Of a stretch of 64,000 nucleotides of DNA, positions 8,634 to 51,499 are shown one piece after another. Position 1 is the stretch's first letter; each line of letters opens with the position of its first letter. The notes under the pieces are model-generated. The model had not been told where the DNA came from. It saw nothing but the letters and a program-made list of their open reading frames with translations, and did no database searches. This DNA is from an uncultured Mesonia sp. (GTDB lineage: Bacteria; Bacteroidota; Bacteroidia; Flavobacteriales; Flavobacteriaceae), in NCBI GenBank assembly GCA_958296185.1, contig CATQIB010000013.1, positions 62,001 through 126,000 of the forward strand, written 5' to 3'. The translations under genes were made by a program, and so were the position numbers.

Positions 8634-10577
8634 ATGAAGCACCACTACCTTGTTTTTTTTGTATATTTTATCTTAGGCATAAGCGCAGACGCCCAGTCTA
8701 TTGCGCAAGTCAATCTACAAGCAAAGCAATTTCAAGATGCTTATAACCAAGCCTTAAACCAACAAGAATATGATGAAGCCTTAGTGCACCTCAACGCACT
8801 AAGTGATTTACTGATTTACCAAGCCATCGATCACCAAAGAAGCTATAGTTTATTACGTGATTTTAAACCCTACCTCAAGTTCTGCCAAACCCCCAAACAA
8901 CGTGCTAACTTTTATATTAATTATGCAGAATCGGCTACTTATAACCAGTATTACAAAGAGGCGATGCAAATACTTGAAGAAGGGATTTCTTATATGGAGA
9001 AAGAACAAGATTCCAGTTGGTATGCTTTTGGCTATGCTTATCTTAAAGCAGCCGAAAACACCAATCGGTTGAACCGTTTTACCGAAAGCGCAACCTATTT
9101 TCAAAAAGCTGAGAGCCTTTTTAGTCACCAACAGGATAGTCTTATGTTGTTATGGACCAAGAGCGGTTTGAGTACTTTATTCAGTAGTTTTGCTTTATAC
9201 GATAAAGCGGCGAAAGAGAGGGAATTTATTTTTAATATGCCTAAAAAACCTGGTTTTGCTCAGGTAAAAGCTGTGGCCCATTTACGAGCTGCTACCGATG
9301 CTTTTTTTCAGAATCAACCGCAAAAAGAGCTGTATCATATCGAGCAAGCCTTAAAAACAGAAAACAACCAAGCCGATATCAAAGAGATTGTTAGGCTGAT
9401 AAGCCTCACCTTTGCTACGGCTATTTATGCCCGCAACCATCAGAAAGATAAAGCAAATCGCTATTTTAAAGAGCTCCAAACTCAGTTTAGCGAACACAAG
9501 TTACAAACCCCATTTATAAATAGCTATTATCGCTTGGCACAAAGTAGGCATGCTTTGGTAAATAACCAAATAGATTTAGCTATTTCTTCGGCTCATGACT
9601 TGCTAGAGAGTTTAGAAAATACAGATGATTGGCAACACCTGGCGCGTGCTTATTGGTTATTGGCCAACATCTACGAAGAAAATCAACAAACCCCTAAGGC
9701 CCTTTACTTTTTAAAGCGCTACACCCATTTAAAAGACTCGGTAAACGTAGCCGCATCGCGTAGGCAATTTGCTTTTGTGCAAACTCAATTTGAAACCAAG
9801 AAAAAAGATCTCGCCTTAAAGCAAAAAAATCAAGCCATTGAACTGCTGCATGCTAAAAATCGCATTGTAAATCAGCGTTTATTATTATTAGGAATAATTA
9901 GCCTTTTCGGATTTGTTTTCCTTTACATTTGGCGACAACGCTTGTACGCCCAACGCAAAGAACGCCTGCAAAAAGAATTTGCTCATAACTTGGTGCATCA
10001 ATTAGAAGATGAGCGCAAACGTATTGCAGGAGAATTACACGACAGCGTAGGGCAAAATCTTTTATTGGTAAAAAACAAACTCTTGTTAAAAAAGCAGCAA
10101 GAGCATCAACTACTCGAAGAGAGCATACAAGAAGTTAGATCGATGTCTCAGCGCCTTCATCCGTTTCAATTCGAAAAGCTAGGCTTACTTACTTCGATTA
10201 AGCATACGGTAGAGCGTTTTCAAAAAAATTCGAGTATTTATTACTCCACACTTATTGAAACCCAACACATCAATCTAAAAAAAGAAAAAGCCATCTTCAT
10301 TTTTAGGATGATTCAAGAATGTCTTAACAATGTAGAGAAACATTCTCAAGCCTCGGCTTGTCAAGTACGCATACAAGAAACCTCAGAAACTTATATTTTT
10401 AGCATAAAAGATAACGGGCTGGGTTTTGAGGTTAACCAACAGATGCAAAAACTCGACAGCTTAGGCTTAAAAAATCTTAAAGAACGGGCCGTATTAATAG
10501 AGGCCAAATTAAAAATACGTTCTTGTAGAGAAAAAGGAACGCATATAAGTATAATTCTAAATAAACACGCCAACTAA
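8634..10577 (+). CDS. TPR-containing sensor histidine kinase (HisKA_3 type)
   Basis: This is a two-component sensor of 647 aa. It has an N-terminal signal sequence, then a helical repeat region of TPR type at about residues 30-380. A coiled-coil linker and one membrane segment (about 415-434, LLLLGIISLFGFVFLYIW) follow. The HisKA_3 dimerisation domain has the phosphoacceptor H469 in AGELHDSVGQN. The HATPase domain has N-box ECLNNVEKHS and G1 box DNGLGF. The sensing part therefore appears periplasmic. Its last base overlaps the first base of the response regulator ATG (TAATG), so the pair is translationally coupled. The ligand cannot be told from sequence. Confidence 0.93.
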   Translation: MKHHYLVFFVYFILGISADAQSIAQVNLQAKQFQDAYNQALNQQEYDEALVHLNALSDLLIYQAIDHQRSYSLLRDFKPYLKFCQTPKQRANFYINYAESATYNQYYKEAMQILEEGISYMEKEQDSSWYAFGYAYLKAAENTNRLNRFTESATYFQKAESLFSHQQDSLMLLWTKSGLSTLFSSFALYDKAAKEREFIFNMPKKPGFAQVKAVAHLRAATDAFFQNQPQKELYHIEQALKTENNQADIKEIVRLISLTFATAIYARNHQKDKANRYFKELQTQFSEHKLQTPFINSYYRLAQSRHALVNNQIDLAISSAHDLLESLENTDDWQHLARAYWLLANIYEENQQTPKALYFLKRYTHLKDSVNVAASRRQFAFVQTQFETKKKDLALKQKNQAIELLHAKNRIVNQRLLLLGIISLFGFVFLYIWRQRLYAQRKERLQKEFAHNLVHQLEDERKRIAGELHDSVGQNLLLVKNKLLLKKQQEHQLLEESIQEVRSMSQRLHPFQFEKLGLLTSIKHTVERFQKNSSIYYSTLIETQHINLKKEKAIFIFRMIQECLNNVEKHSQASACQVRIQETSETYIFSIKDNGLGFEVNQQMQKLDSLGLKNLKERAVLIEAKLKIRSCREKGTHISIILNKHAN

Positions 10578-11197
10578 TGCCCTTACGTATTTTACTCGCC
10601 GATGATCACCCGCTATTGCTAAAAGGAACCCAGGCCTACCTCAACAGTAAAGGGCACCAAGTGGTGGCCACCGCTCAGGATGGTATAGCGGCCTATTATG
10701 CCATATTAAAACATCAGCCCCATATCGCTATTCTCGACTTTGATATGCCTAAACAAAACGGTTTAGAGGTGGCCAAGGCGATTTTTGCCCAGGGCACTAA
10801 GGTAAAGGTCATCTTGTTAACCTTGCATCAACAAGAAGCCATACTGTCCGAACTTGGGCACTGTATTGCTGGGTATTTAACCAAAGATACCGCTTTAGAA
10901 GAACTAGATGATTGTTTAAATGCGGTTTTATCTCAAAAAACCTACCAGAGTTCTACCCTAAAAAATAATATTCATATTCCAAGCCAAAACCCTCAGCTAG
11001 AAAAACTCACCGCTAGCGAACTTAAGATTTTGAAATATATTGAACAAGAATATACCAGCGCTCAAATTGCCGAAGAACTTTTCATTTCAAAACGAACGGT
11101 AGAAAAGCACCGTAGTAATATTATTGAAAAGCTAAATCTAGACTCTCAAGCCCACAGCCTCTTACTTTGGTTAAAACAAAACAAAATGAGTTTTTAA
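10577..11197 (+). CDS. LuxR/NarL-family response regulator
   Basis: This is the cognate transcription factor of the kinase immediately upstream. The 206-aa protein has a receiver domain with acidic pocket D9/D10, probable phosphoacceptor D54 in ILDFDMP, T82 and K103. A LuxR-type helix-turn-helix follows at about residues 143-200 (LTASELKILKYIEQEYTSAQIAEELFISKRTVEKH). All receiver residues are present. The start overlaps the kinase stop codon. The next genes downstream (collar protein, large adhesin) are candidate targets by proximity only. Confidence 0.94.
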   Translation: MPLRILLADDHPLLLKGTQAYLNSKGHQVVATAQDGIAAYYAILKHQPHIAILDFDMPKQNGLEVAKAIFAQGTKVKVILLTLHQQEAILSELGHCIAGYLTKDTALEELDDCLNAVLSQKTYQSSTLKNNIHIPSQNPQLEKLTASELKILKYIEQEYTSAQIAEELFISKRTVEKHRSNIIEKLNLDSQAHSLLLWLKQNKMSF

Positions 11198-11361
11198 AAA
11201 AAGTTGTTTGTTGGTCTAGAACTGTTTCATTCCCTTTTCAGGGAAATGTTTACGCTATAACCAACATAAGATCAAAGGCTATAGCCTATATACGTAGAGC
11301 TACGTATTCCAAAAGTTGAACCTAAAAACTAACTTGCACGGGTAAATATAAAACACCCAAT

Positions 11362-11736
11362 ATGTTCACTATTAAAATCGAAAACAACTACCGGTATTCT
11401 GGACGCTTGGTCAATACCGACACCAATAGAGATTGGATCATCAATCATCATTTTACCAGTGCTAGTATTCCCGATTTAAAATCGGCTTTATTACAAATTT
11501 ATGGACTCGGCGAAGTTCTTTTTTTAGATCTAGGCGAAGAAAAGATAAAAGGATATCCTTTTCCTTCTGAGCGTTACGGACTTTTAATACGCTGCCACAG
11601 TACCGAATTTTATTACCGTTTTGAACAACACGGCGATATATACTTAACTATAGATGCGCTAGGCTGTTTTAGTTTACAAGTAAAAAATGGTACAGCAATA
11701 CAGATCAAACTACCCGAATTATCACTTAAACAATAA
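11362..11736 (+). CDS. Hypothetical protein, 124 aa, upstream of the collar protein
   Basis: I do not recognise this protein. It has no signal peptide or membrane segment, is rich in aromatic residues and looks like a mixed alpha/beta cytoplasmic domain. It starts 165 nt after the response regulator, and its stop is 4 nt before the collar-domain gene, so those two are probably co-transcribed. Coding is supported by length, codon use similar to its neighbours and the tight spacing. Function unknown. Confidence 0.7.
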   Translation: MFTIKIENNYRYSGRLVNTDTNRDWIINHHFTSASIPDLKSALLQIYGLGEVLFLDLGEEKIKGYPFPSERYGLLIRCHSTEFYYRFEQHGDIYLTIDALGCFSLQVKNGTAIQIKLPELSLKQ

Positions 11737-48839: not shown

Positions 48840-49141
48840 AATTTTAATGAATTTTATAATTATTCATAAAGCAATAATAATAAACAAATTATAAATTATC
48901 TACCTAAACTTAAGGAAGTATCAATATATTTTCTCGTTGACTTGTATTTAGAGCTCGATTAAGAAGAGTCAAAAAATGTAGAATTCTTCCTATACAAATT
49001 AACTACAATTATTGGCTAAAGACAAGAATTGTTTTTGAACCAAGAAAACCCAAATTTTTCTTATTTCGACTCGATAAATTATTTGCTTAAAAACTCAAAA
49101 ACCCAGAAAATGGTCTTGATCCCAGAAAATGGTCTTAATCC
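48840..49141. other. 302-bp intergenic region with a 19-bp tandem repeat
   Basis: The unit CCCAGAAAATGGTCTTgAT occurs at 49102-49120 and again at 49121-49139 with one base change. It abuts the GIY-YIG/tRNA repeat region. The rest is AT-rich and shows no gene; an open frame from 49029 is rejected because its end is translated tRNA sequence. Confidence 0.6.
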
Positions 49142-49203
49142 CGTAATAAGACATCAAATTAGGGTAAAAACAAAAAAGCCCTACATTGCTGTAAGGCTTT
49201 TCG

Positions 49204-49242
49204 CTCCTCTTCTTGGGCTCGAACCAAGGACCCTCTGATTAA
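49204..49242 (-). repeat. tRNA-Asn 3' half fragment, distal copy
   Basis: These 39 nt match positions from the anticodon loop to the discriminator base of the intact tRNA-Asn at 49990-50063. The 5' half is absent. The stop codon of the GIY-YIG gene (49239-49241) lies within it. Confidence 0.85.
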
Positions 49243-49547
49243 TCCCGAGATTTCGGGACTCGAACCAACTGAGCTAATTTCCCTTCCAACACGTAATCAG
49301 GGTCTAGCAAGCGCTCAATAAATTGTTTGCTTTTTTGCTTCTTTATAAATTGCTCCATTTTCATAGCTTCTCCACGGGTTGAACCTGATAAAAATACAGC
49401 TGCTAAAGACCAAGGCCTATATTTGGATGTGAAAGTATGAAAACCAGATATGTTATGCCGCACTAAACGATTTTCAGGATTTTCTGTCGATCCTATATAA
49501 TAGCCATCAAGTTTTTTAGAATATAAAATATATACGTAATAAGACAT
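49239..49547 (-). CDS. GIY-YIG nuclease, copy 1
   Basis: This is a single-domain endonuclease of 102 aa from MSYYVYILYSKKLDGYYIGSTENPENRL. It has the GIY-YIG tyrosines, the arginine in ENRLVRHN and the glutamate in AMKMEQFIKKQKS. The last 14 residues (GKLAQLVRVPKSRD) are translated from tRNA sequence: TTAGCTCAGTTGGTT is a D-arm, and CGAGTCCCGAAATCTCGGGA resembles a T-arm plus acceptor. The stop falls in the tRNA-Asn 3' half. An in-frame ATG at 49562 would add five residues. It is almost identical to the neighbouring copy (four differences seen). Confidence 0.85.
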   Translation of the reverse strand: MSYYVYILYSKKLDGYYIGSTENPENRLVRHNISGFHTFTSKYRPWSLAAVFLSGSTRGEAMKMEQFIKKQKSKQFIERLLDPDYVLEGKLAQLVRVPKSRD

Positions 49548-49596
49548 GAAATTAGGATACAAACAAAAAAGCCCTACATTGCTGTAAGGCTTTTCG

Positions 49597-49635
49597 CTCC
49601 TCTTCTTGGGCTCGAACCAAGGACCCTCTGATTAA
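49597..49635 (-). repeat. tRNA-Asn 3' half fragment, proximal copy
   Basis: It is identical in layout to 49204-49242, offset by 393 bp, and followed by its own terminator copy (49565-49594). Confidence 0.85.
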
Positions 49636-49940
49636 TCCCGAGATTTCGGGACTCGAACCAACTGAGCTAATTTCCCTTCCAACACGTAATCAGGGTCTAG
49701 CAAGCGCTCAATAAATTGTTTGCTTTTTTGCTTCTTTATAAATCGCTCCATTTTCATAGCTTCTCCACGGGTTGAACCTGATAAAAATACAGCTGCTAAA
49801 GACCAAGGCCTATATTTGGATGTGAAAGTATGAAAATCAGATGTGTTATGCCGCACTAAACGAGTTTCAGGATTTTCTGTCGATCCTATATAATAGCCAT
49901 CAAGTTTTTTAGAATATAAAATATATACGTAATAAGACAT
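49632..49940 (-). CDS. GIY-YIG nuclease, copy 2
   Basis: This is the second copy of the 102-aa nuclease, differing from copy 1 at four positions (T for N, T for I, D for G, R for Q). Active-site residues are the same, and the tail GKLAQLVRVPKSRD is again encoded by chimeric tRNA sequence. It lies about 50 nt after the intact tRNA-Asn and its terminator. Both copies are intact, so loss of function has not followed duplication. Related one-domain GIY-YIG proteins are common in Bacteroidota, and their function is unknown. Confidence 0.85.
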   Translation of the reverse strand: MSYYVYILYSKKLDGYYIGSTENPETRLVRHNTSDFHTFTSKYRPWSLAAVFLSGSTRGEAMKMERFIKKQKSKQFIERLLDPDYVLEGKLAQLVRVPKSRD

Positions 49941-49957
49941 GAAATTAGGATACAAAC

Positions 49958-49987
49958 AAAAAAGCCCTACATTGCTGTAAGGCTTTT
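49958..49987 (-). terminator. Terminator of tRNA-Asn (copied in each repeat unit)
   Basis: Read on the minus strand, AAAAGCC(TTACA), loop, (TGTAG)GGCTTTT and a T run follow the tRNA 3' end. Copies lie at 49565-49594 and 49172-49201. Confidence 0.75.
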
Positions 49988-49989
49988 CG

Positions 49990-50063
49990 CTCCTCTTCTT
50001 GGGCTCGAACCAAGGACCCTCTGATTAACAGTCAGATGCTCTAACCAACTGAGCTAAAGAGGA
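49990..50063 (-). tRNA. tRNA-Asn (GTT)
   Basis: Read on the minus strand it starts TCCTCTTTAGCTCAGTTGGT. The acceptor stem TCCTCTT/AAGAGGA is fully paired. The D-arm, the anticodon loop CTGTTAA (anticodon GTT), the T-arm with GGTTCGAGCC and a discriminator G are all present. CCA is not encoded. This is the intact member beside the two 3' half copies. Confidence 0.95.
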
Positions 50064-50147: not shown

Positions 50148-51467
50148 TTACTCAAACAACCAGCGGTACACATCATTTCCGTTGGCATATAGCACCAAAG
50201 CAATTAAAATAAAGAACCCAACCATTTGGGCATACTCCATAAATTTATCGTTAGGTTTACGTCCGGTAATCATTTCGTACAGTAAAAACATCACGTGTCC
50301 ACCGTCTAAAGCCGGAATTGGTAGGATGTTCATAAAGGCTAAGATAATTGAAATCAATGCTGTGGTTCCCCAGAAGGCCCTCCAATCCCAAGCATCTGGA
50401 AATAGATTACCTATTGCTCCAAAACCTCCCACTTGAGTGGCTCCCTTTTTAGTAAACACATACTTAAACTGTGCTACATAATCGTGAAGGGTCCAATAAG
50501 TATAAGAAAAACCTTGCGAAATACTTTCCCCTAAACCGTAGGTGCGTTCTTCAAAAGTAACTGGTAATGGTTCCGCTCTCAATCCAAAAATATTCTCTTC
50601 TCCTAAGTTCACCGGTAATTTCAAGGTATCTGCCCCTCTTAAAACACTAAGCTCAATTCGTTTTGCCTCAGTTTCATTTTTATATCGGTTGAACTCTGCA
50701 AAATTATATACTGCCTGATTGTTAAAAGCAATTACTCGATCTCCTGCCTTTAGTCCGGCTTTATCAGCAGGGCTATCGGTGGTTACAGAATCTATTGTAT
50801 TACTTACCATAGGCGAAAAAGGCTGGGTAAAACCTGCCTTAAAAAGTTGCACGCCGATATCTTCTGGCAATTGCAGCATTTCCTTAGTTCCGTCTTGGTG
50901 TAATACCTCAACCTCACTAGCATCGCGAACCATCAAATAACTATTAATACTCAATTGGTTTTCTAAGGCTTCGCCATTTACACTCACAATACGGTCACCA
51001 TCTTTAAAGCCATACTCTTGTAAAGGCTCAGCCACACTAAAACCGTTAGGTATCCCATCTTGCGTAACATAATTACTCCCCCAAACAAAGAGTATCATCA
51101 TATAAATAAGAAAACCCAAGATGATATTAACCGTAACCCCACCAATCATAATAATTAATCTCTGCCAAGCTGGTTTACTCCTAAACTCCCATTCTTTAGG
51201 TTCTTCGGCCATCTGTTCTTTATCCATACTCTCATCTATCATTCCAGATATTTTCACGTATCCGCCTAAAGGCAACCAGCCAATCCCATATACCGTATCG
51301 CCAATTTTTTTCTTAAAAAGAGCGAATTTCACATCAAAAAATAAAAAGAATTTTTCAACACGCGTTTTAAAAATTTTAGCCGGTATAAAATGACCTAATT
51401 CGTGTAAAACAATTAAAAATGAAAGGCTTAATAGTAACTGTATCGCTTTTATCGCAAATGGACTCAT
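50148..51467 (-). CDS. rseP: RseP-type site-2 intramembrane metalloprotease
   Basis: This is a membrane zinc protease of regulated intramembrane proteolysis. The 439-aa protein starts MSPFAIKAIQLLL and has the zinc motif H22-E-L-G-H26 in the first helix. Two PDZ domains (about 120-190 and 200-280) follow, then the C-terminal motif LDGGHVMFLLYEMITGRKP. An upstream in-frame start at 51494 lies inside the -7 element and is rejected. The likely substrate is an anti-sigma factor, not seen here. Confidence 0.95.
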   Translation of the reverse strand: MSPFAIKAIQLLLSLSFLIVLHELGHFIPAKIFKTRVEKFFLFFDVKFALFKKKIGDTVYGIGWLPLGGYVKISGMIDESMDKEQMAEEPKEWEFRSKPAWQRLIIMIGGVTVNIILGFLIYMMILFVWGSNYVTQDGIPNGFSVAEPLQEYGFKDGDRIVSVNGEALENQLSINSYLMVRDASEVEVLHQDGTKEMLQLPEDIGVQLFKAGFTQPFSPMVSNTIDSVTTDSPADKAGLKAGDRVIAFNNQAVYNFAEFNRYKNETEAKRIELSVLRGADTLKLPVNLGEENIFGLRAEPLPVTFEERTYGLGESISQGFSYTYWTLHDYVAQFKYVFTKKGATQVGGFGAIGNLFPDAWDWRAFWGTTALISIILAFMNILPIPALDGGHVMFLLYEMITGRKPNDKFMEYAQMVGFFILIALVLYANGNDVYRWLFE

Positions 51468-51491
51468 ATTTTCTACATTATAAAAATCGCA

Positions 51492-51499
51492 CAAAAGTA
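51492..51499 (-). promoter_or_regulatory. -7 element of rseP
   Basis: The minus strand reads TACTTTTG, an exact TAnnTTTG match, 25 nt before the ATG at 51467. Confidence 0.5.

Follow-up and report, generated by a model that had tools for sequence, protein, structure and literature searches.

According to the excerpted text of one report, the GIY-YIG enzyme SegB is associated with tRNAs and cleaves inside tRNA genes, and SegB and recombination functions are both required for the tandem amplification of SegB and tRNA-Tyr (PMC13096335). In T4, a second excerpt places SegB between tRNA-Arg and tRNA-Ile (PMC2988022). We found two units with a free-standing GIY-YIG gene beside a tRNA in the window (the whole 64,000-nt stretch of DNA that was analysed, from an uncultured Mesonia sp.). 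As far as these excerpts describe SegB of the T4/T6 phages, the window unit resembles it in that a free-standing GIY-YIG gene lies beside tRNA genes and is associated with tandem copies; the unit also shows the trait of free-standing homing endonucleases that the gene lies beside its presumed target, here the tRNA. SegB differs in being phage-borne and in showing no isotype preference, and the excerpt reports no pseudo-tRNA, hairpin or tRNA-encoded tail for it (PMC13096335). Among the matches listed in our literature search, which included a term search of PMC1564403, there was no earlier description of such a unit in the text portions covered; most subscription journals and all of bioRxiv lay outside its scope, and an earlier description is possible.

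The closest solved folds and sequences to the window protein are those of SLX1 and UPF0213, which are single-domain GIY-YIG nucleases. SLX1 and UPF0213 are repair or uncharacterised proteins; unlike them, the present family is linked to tRNA genes, often forms tandem copies and has a patchy distribution. Islands and prophages that integrate into tRNA genes by a tyrosine integrase share with the unit a tRNA 3' half duplicated beside an intact tRNA. Unlike them, the unit is <400 bp, carries a hairpin in the damaged copy and has no integrase-like ORF, the GIY-YIG gene being the sole ORF of at least 60 aa wholly inside each 393-bp unit. The likeness to tRNA-inserting elements noted in an earlier, sequence-only reading therefore holds for the copied tRNA half, does not extend to an integrase, and is superficial. 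Group I introns with homing endonucleases occur in tRNA anticodon loops, and there too a selfish nuclease is associated with the anticodon region; unlike that case, the tRNA beside the unit is uninterrupted and has no intron.

Downstream of the intact tRNA-Asn, we found a single tandem array at 49142-50028 (TRF; period 393, 2.3 copies, 98% matches), whose copies are 97-99% identical to one another (Table 1). TRF, ARAGORN and the match to PF01541 bear out what had been read from the letters alone, namely two 393-bp units beside an intact tRNA-Asn, each with a GIY-YIG gene and a tRNA 3' half. Each unit runs from a tRNA-Asn 3' part (the first of each unit starts at tRNA position 36) through a terminator-like hairpin (by eye), the GIY-YIG gene, a D-arm piece and TCCCGAAATCTCGGGA to a further tRNA 3' part. 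Both pieces of the pseudo-tRNA (tRNA 7-21 and 36-75) are 100% identical to tRNA-Asn, and the intact tRNA alone was above the gathering score in the Rfam scan. The nuclease tail, LAQLVRVPKSRD, is encoded by tRNA-Asn positions 7-21 (D-arm) and then by TCCCGAAATCTCGGGA, and its TAA stop is, as had been claimed, retained tRNA-Asn anticodon-loop sequence. The tail had been described as running through a D-arm and a T-arm/acceptor-like sequence; the D-arm stands and the second part does not, since TCCCGAAATCTCGGGA is a 16-nt inverted repeat with a 6-bp stem and a 4-nt loop and is not tRNA acceptor sequence. The 13-nt start of a third gene is present at the edge as described, and we found it to be cut by a dispersed repeat. 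We chose ATG as the start codon of the unit 1 gene, and an upstream TTG is also possible. The adjoining protease gene is presumably rseP.

Table 1. Features of the tRNA-Asn locus in the window.
Feature	Position	Strand	Basis or remark
Intact tRNA-Asn (GTT)	49989-50063	minus	ARAGORN; Rfam RF00005, 69.7 bits
Terminator-like hairpin and T-run 3' of tRNA-Asn	49958-49987	minus	by eye
Terminator-like hairpin and T-run, repeats of 49958-49987	49565-49594, 49172-49201	minus	repeat register
GIY-YIG nuclease gene, unit 1	49632-49940	minus	ATG to TAA, 102 aa, last codons tRNA-derived
Pseudo-tRNA-Asn 1	49596-49670	minus	D-arm piece 49656-49670 (tRNA 7-21), 3' half 49596-49635 (tRNA 36-75)
Hairpin TCCCGAGATTTCGGGA in pseudo-tRNA 1	49636-49651	.	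replaces 5' strand of anticodon arm
GIY-YIG nuclease gene, unit 2	49239-49547	minus	protein 96% identical to unit 1
Pseudo-tRNA-Asn 2	49203-49277	minus	D-arm piece 49263-49277, 3' half 49203-49242
Hairpin in pseudo-tRNA 2	49243-49258	.	
13-nt start of third GIY-YIG gene	49142-49154	minus	cut off by adjoining repeat
Dispersed repeat truncating third unit, CCATTTTCTGGGTTTTTGA	49095-49141	minus	7 genome places, <=2 mismatches
rseP-like protease gene	50148-51494	minus	adjoins tRNA-Asn; orthology anchor for empty-site test

The reading that we prefer, at close to an even chance, is that the unit may be a SegB-like selfish cassette that is specific to a tRNA site and is amplified when tRNA repeats recombine. 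We prefer it because the gene is tied to one isotype, flanked by tRNA sequence, often tandem and dispensable.

Both window nucleases matched PF01541 (E 1.2e-14 and 6.6e-14; 54.7 and 52.4 bits, cut-off 22.6), and the NCBIfam scan gave no match for the nuclease. Across 78 aligned sequences, the window included, Y17, G19, R27, H31 and E65 were invariant, which we take to be catalytic-type residues, and Y6 and N32 were conserved in at least 90%. The structure predicted for the 102 aa (pLDDT 92.9, pTM 0.84) found SLX1 as its best match in a fold search (6sei, E 8.8e-05), then UPF0213 (1zg2, 2.4e-03), with I-TevI distant (E 0.87); profile comparison gave UPF0213 at E 3.7e-09 and SLX1 at E 3.4e-05. 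The two window genes differ by 4 non-synonymous and 0 synonymous changes, which is uninformative on selection. Across wider comparisons, dN/dS was 0.08-0.28 in 9 of 13 named pairs (those with finite dS; the other 4 were saturated) and 0.09-0.48 in 6 of 7 Flavobacteriaceae pairs (the remaining 1 was saturated). Hence, the nuclease is under purifying selection, as expected for a functional protein.

We considered carriage by phages or plasmids and rejected it: tblastn of the window protein against 50,697 phage records gave no match at E 0.01, and the plasmid search gave only 3 weak matches, all Legionella. A PHROG homing-endonuclease family was matched weakly by 10 of the 78 members (best E 2.7e-05), and the sole PHROG match of the window protein was weak (phrog_5032, E 0.0065). 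The lack of a phage-record match counts against the SegB-like cassette, as does the finding that the closest solved proteins are SLX1 and UPF0213, not I-TevI. In its own genome (90% complete), the window protein had no second match at E 0.001; the other GIY-YIG matches there were a 615-aa frame, presumably UvrC, and a broken remnant at a contig end.

With the window protein as query (E 1e-10 or better), relatives of the nuclease were found in 67 of 299 Flavobacteriaceae genomes; in the Bacteroidota sample, 103 of 395 genomes had them. We examined 90 Flavobacteriaceae loci, which are all listed places except G182:C11, G012:C10 and G144:C25, and excluded L002 as a duplicate of the window locus. 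The association with tRNA genes is well beyond chance, with a tRNA (ARAGORN) within 1500 bp at 75 of the 90 loci, always on the gene strand and within 250 bp at 63, in comparison with 0 of 30 feoA-like control loci within 1500 bp. By eye, 14 of the 15 loci with no called tRNA show tRNA fragments by the gene, several of them at contig ends, and no fragment is visible at L086. The isotypes at the family loci were Asn, Phe, Pro, Val, Asp, Arg, Ser, Met, His and Ala. In the phylum sample, 25 of the 28 best-ranked loci examined (two of them, L244 and L250, duplicating family loci) had a tRNA, and Gly was added. The tRNA-linked unit of <400 bp with one GIY-YIG gene thus recurs, as first read in the window, at many tRNA loci and isotypes, and copies at the tRNA loci of eleven isotypes go against an account by slippage only.

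A scan of named organisms gave 159 related stretches, of which we kept 78 Asn-type loci, ascertained by two nuclease-core peptides with the tail excluded. These comprised 25 Flavobacteriales, 10 Sphingobacteriales, 9 Chitinophagales, 9 Bacteroidales, 8 Cytophagales, 1 Chromatiales bin (Thioalkalivibrio) and 16 with no order, two of these called Chlorobiota. At 61 of the 78, tRNA-Asn lay within 800 bp on the same strand; among the other 17, as judged by eye, 11 begin within ~235 bp of a contig end, 4 have a tRNA-Asn 3' half just upstream and 2 have an acceptor-like remnant only. The search for tRNA-ended GIY-YIG genes suggested by the sequence-only reading found the tRNA-encoded tail pattern in 71 of the 78 loci, in five named orders. 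The Thioalkalivibrio bin (L149) has a typical Bacteroidota-like Asn unit and is probably a mis-binned contig.

Each nuclease subfamily is largely matched to one tRNA isotype. The isotype tree held 89 of the 90 proteins (L051 was left out), cut before the tRNA-derived tail, and has 80 columns with many forks weak. On it, 12 labels, with the loci lacking a called tRNA taken as one label, required 28 isotype changes in comparison with a shuffled mean of 62.6 (0 of 200 shuffles were as low). When the unknowns were left out and the ARAGORN 'SeC' call, which is a pseudo-tRNA beside tRNA-Val, was counted as Val, 16 changes sufficed. Arg labels were scattered (6 changes, 7 rows), and so were Ser labels (3 changes, 4 rows, one of which, L072, appears Pro-type). 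Hence, isotype fidelity is strong, not absolute, and this scatter counts against the SegB-like cassette. On a tree of 77 of the 78 named Asn-type loci (L184 was left out), the rows cluster by taxonomic order, with 14 changes in comparison with 32.8 when shuffled. Hence, vertical inheritance with loss explains part of the pattern, and the clustering counts against the SegB-like cassette in that it gives no sign of frequent long-range transfer. We sought horizontal transfer in the Asn-type and rseP trees, where resolution is weak, and none was demonstrated.

The taxonomic clustering of the Asn type favours a passive history, in which an ancient tRNA-adjacent nuclease with a function elsewhere was carried along by unequal recombination between tRNA repeats, the arrays and pseudo-tRNAs are by-products, and isotype fidelity reflects vertical descent at fixed loci. 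We consider this quite unlikely. Near-identical tandem copies are also what unequal crossing-over would give, and arrays are common: at least 2 copies, 262-649 bp apart and up to 8 in number, occur at 25 of the 90 family loci, and identity over 200 nt reaches 88% or more in 32 of 45 pairs of neighbouring copies. The other 13 pairs are 23-72% identical; the comparison is ungapped, so that a shift in register or frame can account for such values. Among the 78 named loci, 48 had one match, 27 two, 2 three and 1 four. Patchy presence together with purifying selection stands against a passive history.

The damaged tRNA copies take two layouts: intact tRNA, gene, damaged copy (layout A; e.g. Val, Phe, Met and most Asn) and damaged copy, gene, intact tRNA (layout B; Pro, some Asn, Asp, Arg, Ala and Ser). 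Hence, direct repeats of one tRNA flank the gene on both sides. Across the gene, the neighbouring tRNA has a partial copy at 61 of 73 loci in comparison with 0 of 67 control stretches (score >=12). The recurrence of the same kind of flanking damaged copy at many isotypes, in both gene orders, argues against the passive history just described. Twelve of the 73 loci scored <12 and have no clear second copy, and 5 of these scored zero (L014, L034, L040, L060 and L070, which include both His loci, L034 and L070); these count against the SegB-like cassette. In three loci (L083, L087 and L262), the end of the gene extends into the intact tRNA itself.

On the pseudo-tRNA side, a GC-rich hairpin was present at 63 of 74 loci in comparison with 8 of 140 control stretches, and its stem was CCCG/CGGG at 41 of 74 in comparison with 1 of 140; an earlier version of the test gave 60 of 74 loci and 6 of 164 controls. 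The position of the hairpin is characteristic of the nuclease subfamily: the anticodon-arm place in 12 of 14 Val loci, the D-loop in 5 of 5 layout-B Asn loci, the T-loop in 4 of 6 Phe loci, and just past position 50 (T-arm) in 5 of 7 Pro(TGG) loci. In the Asn type, we compared 70 of the 78 tails (59 distinct rows) and found that the hairpin stem covaries, with 20 cells changed on both sides in comparison with 3.3 when shuffled and a covariation score of 0.173 in comparison with 0.064 (best slid register, 0.071). These tails are coding sequence from related rows, and a single pair (C-G, A-U, U-A, G-C) accounts for 16 of the 20 cells. In 63 of the 70 tails, the stop is preceded by a hairpin with at least 5 bp, and 42 of the 70 have a second hairpin in the T-arm region. 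Hairpins in most pseudo-tRNAs, together with this covariation, are not expected from passive decay.

The hairpins bear also on a different alternative, in which an SLX1-like junction or hairpin nuclease acts on folded (single-stranded or cruciform) tRNA-gene DNA and the damaged copy is kept as a folded recombination site whose arm structure, not sequence, is conserved; the attC sites of integrons are somewhat comparable. We rate this as unlikely; in its favour are the SLX1-like fold and the compensatory changes in the hairpin. The abundance of GC-rich and CCCG/CGGG stems in the damaged copies and their regular place in the Val type agree with it, as do the SLX1 and UPF0213 matches, although a fold match does not fix the substrate. 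Against it, shuffled sequences fold as well as the window pseudo-tRNA does as single-stranded DNA (z -0.52), the swapped arm varies between subfamilies, and the covariation comes mostly from one pair in related coding sequences. It is possible, if distinctly short of an even chance, that an SLX1-like nuclease of phylum-wide elements of ~300-400 bp, in largely isotype-specific lineages, recognises folded tRNA-gene DNA and keeps an arm-swapped tRNA copy (often CCCG/CGGG) as a recombination site, with tRNA-encoded ends in the Asn, Ser and Arg lineages.

As a private mark of the units, the hairpin was tried and rejected. We counted 19 places with the pattern TCCCGAN2-8TCGGGA in the window's genome and none in the reversed control. 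Of the 19, 2 are the units; by eye, the 16 contexts viewed of the other 17 are mostly another dispersed repeat, 16S rRNA or coding sequence. Hence, with 17 places beyond the units, the hairpin is not private to them.

All 16 genomes of the genus have an rseP-like gene followed by tRNA-Asn, and at this orthologous site 10 of the 16 species are empty (the locus sequence gave no nuclease match at E 0.01), 3 have remnants and 3 have a gene. In the three remnants (G053, G273 and G311), only the nuclease gene start is left. Two units are present in the window's genome (G000). In G307, an Asn(LAQLVR) unit lies downstream of the tRNA and groups with the window's clade (SH-aLRT 99); on the upstream side is a gene-less damaged tRNA with both D-loop and anticodon-position hairpins (by eye). 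G301 has its gene upstream of the tRNA, in the other Asn clade (13 rows, SH-aLRT 96, quick tree). Copy number among relatives, on which the sequence-only reading had laid weight, is therefore not fixed, since a single orthologous tRNA-Asn site has zero, a remnant, one or two. With the remnants counted in, the Asn(LAQLVR) type requires just two changes on the rseP tree, which suits a passive history; a second subfamily at the same orthologous tRNA does not. Elsewhere, an Asp-type nuclease gene whose frame is open in G053 is reduced to ~16 nt in the window's genome. We also considered precise excision at tRNA-Phe, which has no unit in the window's genome; the sister's downstream flank there is on another contig, and the terminator looks mixed.

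The unit-bearing G000 and G301 share an identical intact tRNA-Asn with 6 of the 10 empty genomes. Hence, a nuclease with the plain tRNA gene as its target would also cleave the DNA of its own host, which counts against the SegB-like cassette. In the textbook homing model, the carrier allele is protected. The identical tRNA-Asn argues against simple homing immunity and is the main difficulty for textbook homing; protection of the carrier allele could lie in the flank or in the pseudo-copy.

We also considered a service to the host, in which the nuclease keeps integrating islands out of the tRNA attachment site or has tRNA-like RNA as its substrate. The unit often lies at the tRNA 3' flank, which is the place of entry of integrase islands, and at least one island entered a unit-bearing tRNA. 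In that case (L201, upstream of L049), the intact tRNA-Met is ~8.4 kb off and an integrase-like ORF adjoins the unit (by eye), and it is one clear case of an integrase-bearing island that entered tRNA-Met separately and parted the tRNA from its unit. The island thus integrated beside the unit, and no exclusion is visible there. In the genus, the unit is missing from 10 of the 16 species, and an insertion-element-like repeat truncates several of the copies close to the start codon. PADLOC, too, gave 0 families at E 0.01, and we rejected a defence gene on that result. We regard service to the host as very unlikely.

L049 is one of three loci with no called tRNA (L032, L049 and L089) that start with a tRNA-Met 3' half. 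Upstream of L089 (L202), there is an integrase-like ORF (by eye) and no tRNA within 20 kb; upstream of L032 (L206), there is neither a tRNA nor an integrase-like ORF before the contig end. Ectopic transposition of units was rejected as the explanation for L201, and perhaps L202, where island insertion accounts for the arrangement; L032 has no such account. At L047 (~9719-11461), the fifth and sixth called copies are ~7.5 kb apart, with an integrase-like ORF (by eye) between them. The sixth copy is preceded by another nuclease gene end and pseudo-tRNA; hence, this is an interrupted array, not a tRNA half.

In several genomes of the genus, an insertion-element-like repeat cuts nuclease genes within their first ~50 nt (L108, L109, L113, L115 and L277 and the window); in the window's genome, the genes cut include the Asp copy as well as the third Asn copy, and L108 has a PF01610 fragment. 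A stretch of the sister genome G053 related to the window's dispersed repeat contains an ISL3-type transposase fragment (PF01610). Insertion near the nuclease starts perhaps reflects inactivation of a costly gene or a target preference.

To return to the SegB-like cassette, the unit would be a minimal parasite of tRNA genes, with one GIY-YIG gene that has an intact tRNA on one side and a damaged copy of this tRNA on the other. By analogy with phage SegB, the nuclease would break DNA at its tRNA gene or at the hairpin-marked copy, and homologous recombination through the tRNA repeats would copy the cassette into an allele without one, as in a presumed transfer between genomes. The same recombination would add or remove tandem units and leave a working tRNA. 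The hairpin in the damaged copy may mark the site recognised by the nuclease or may prevent recutting of the copy, and expression would probably come from low-level read-through from the tRNA. If this reading is true, many Bacteroidota carry a tRNA-gene parasite for which we found no description and which, as a small gene plus a tRNA fragment, is among the smallest conceivable; SegB-like tRNA-linked nuclease biology would extend from phages to bacterial chromosomes, odd proteins whose ends come from tRNA sequence would be explained, and the isotype-matched nucleases would form a natural panel for studying the evolution of site specificity. The hairpin in the damaged copies offers a testable guess at the recognised site.

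Several loci show further arrangements of damaged tRNAs and nuclease remnants. ARAGORN calls some Val-type damaged copies (L050, L062 and L011) tRNAs with stop or SeC anticodons; hence, a cloverleaf-like fold is retained in them. At L115 (~2176-2260), a gene-less damaged tRNA-Asn has two hairpins (by eye), each typical of a different nuclease subfamily. At L240 (G000:C6 start) and L094-L103, a broken GIY-YIG gene of another type adjoins a dispersed repeat, and repeats similar to that of L240 elsewhere in the genome share a TCCCGA/TCGGGA hairpin, possibly a second nuclease-repeat pairing. Nuclease-less tandem arrays of damaged tRNA pieces occur at L008 (~1740-2110, 97-bp spacing) and L029 (~863-1150, 78-bp spacing), where they adjoin intact tRNA-Pro and tRNA-Arg, respectively, and are perhaps non-autonomous derivatives.
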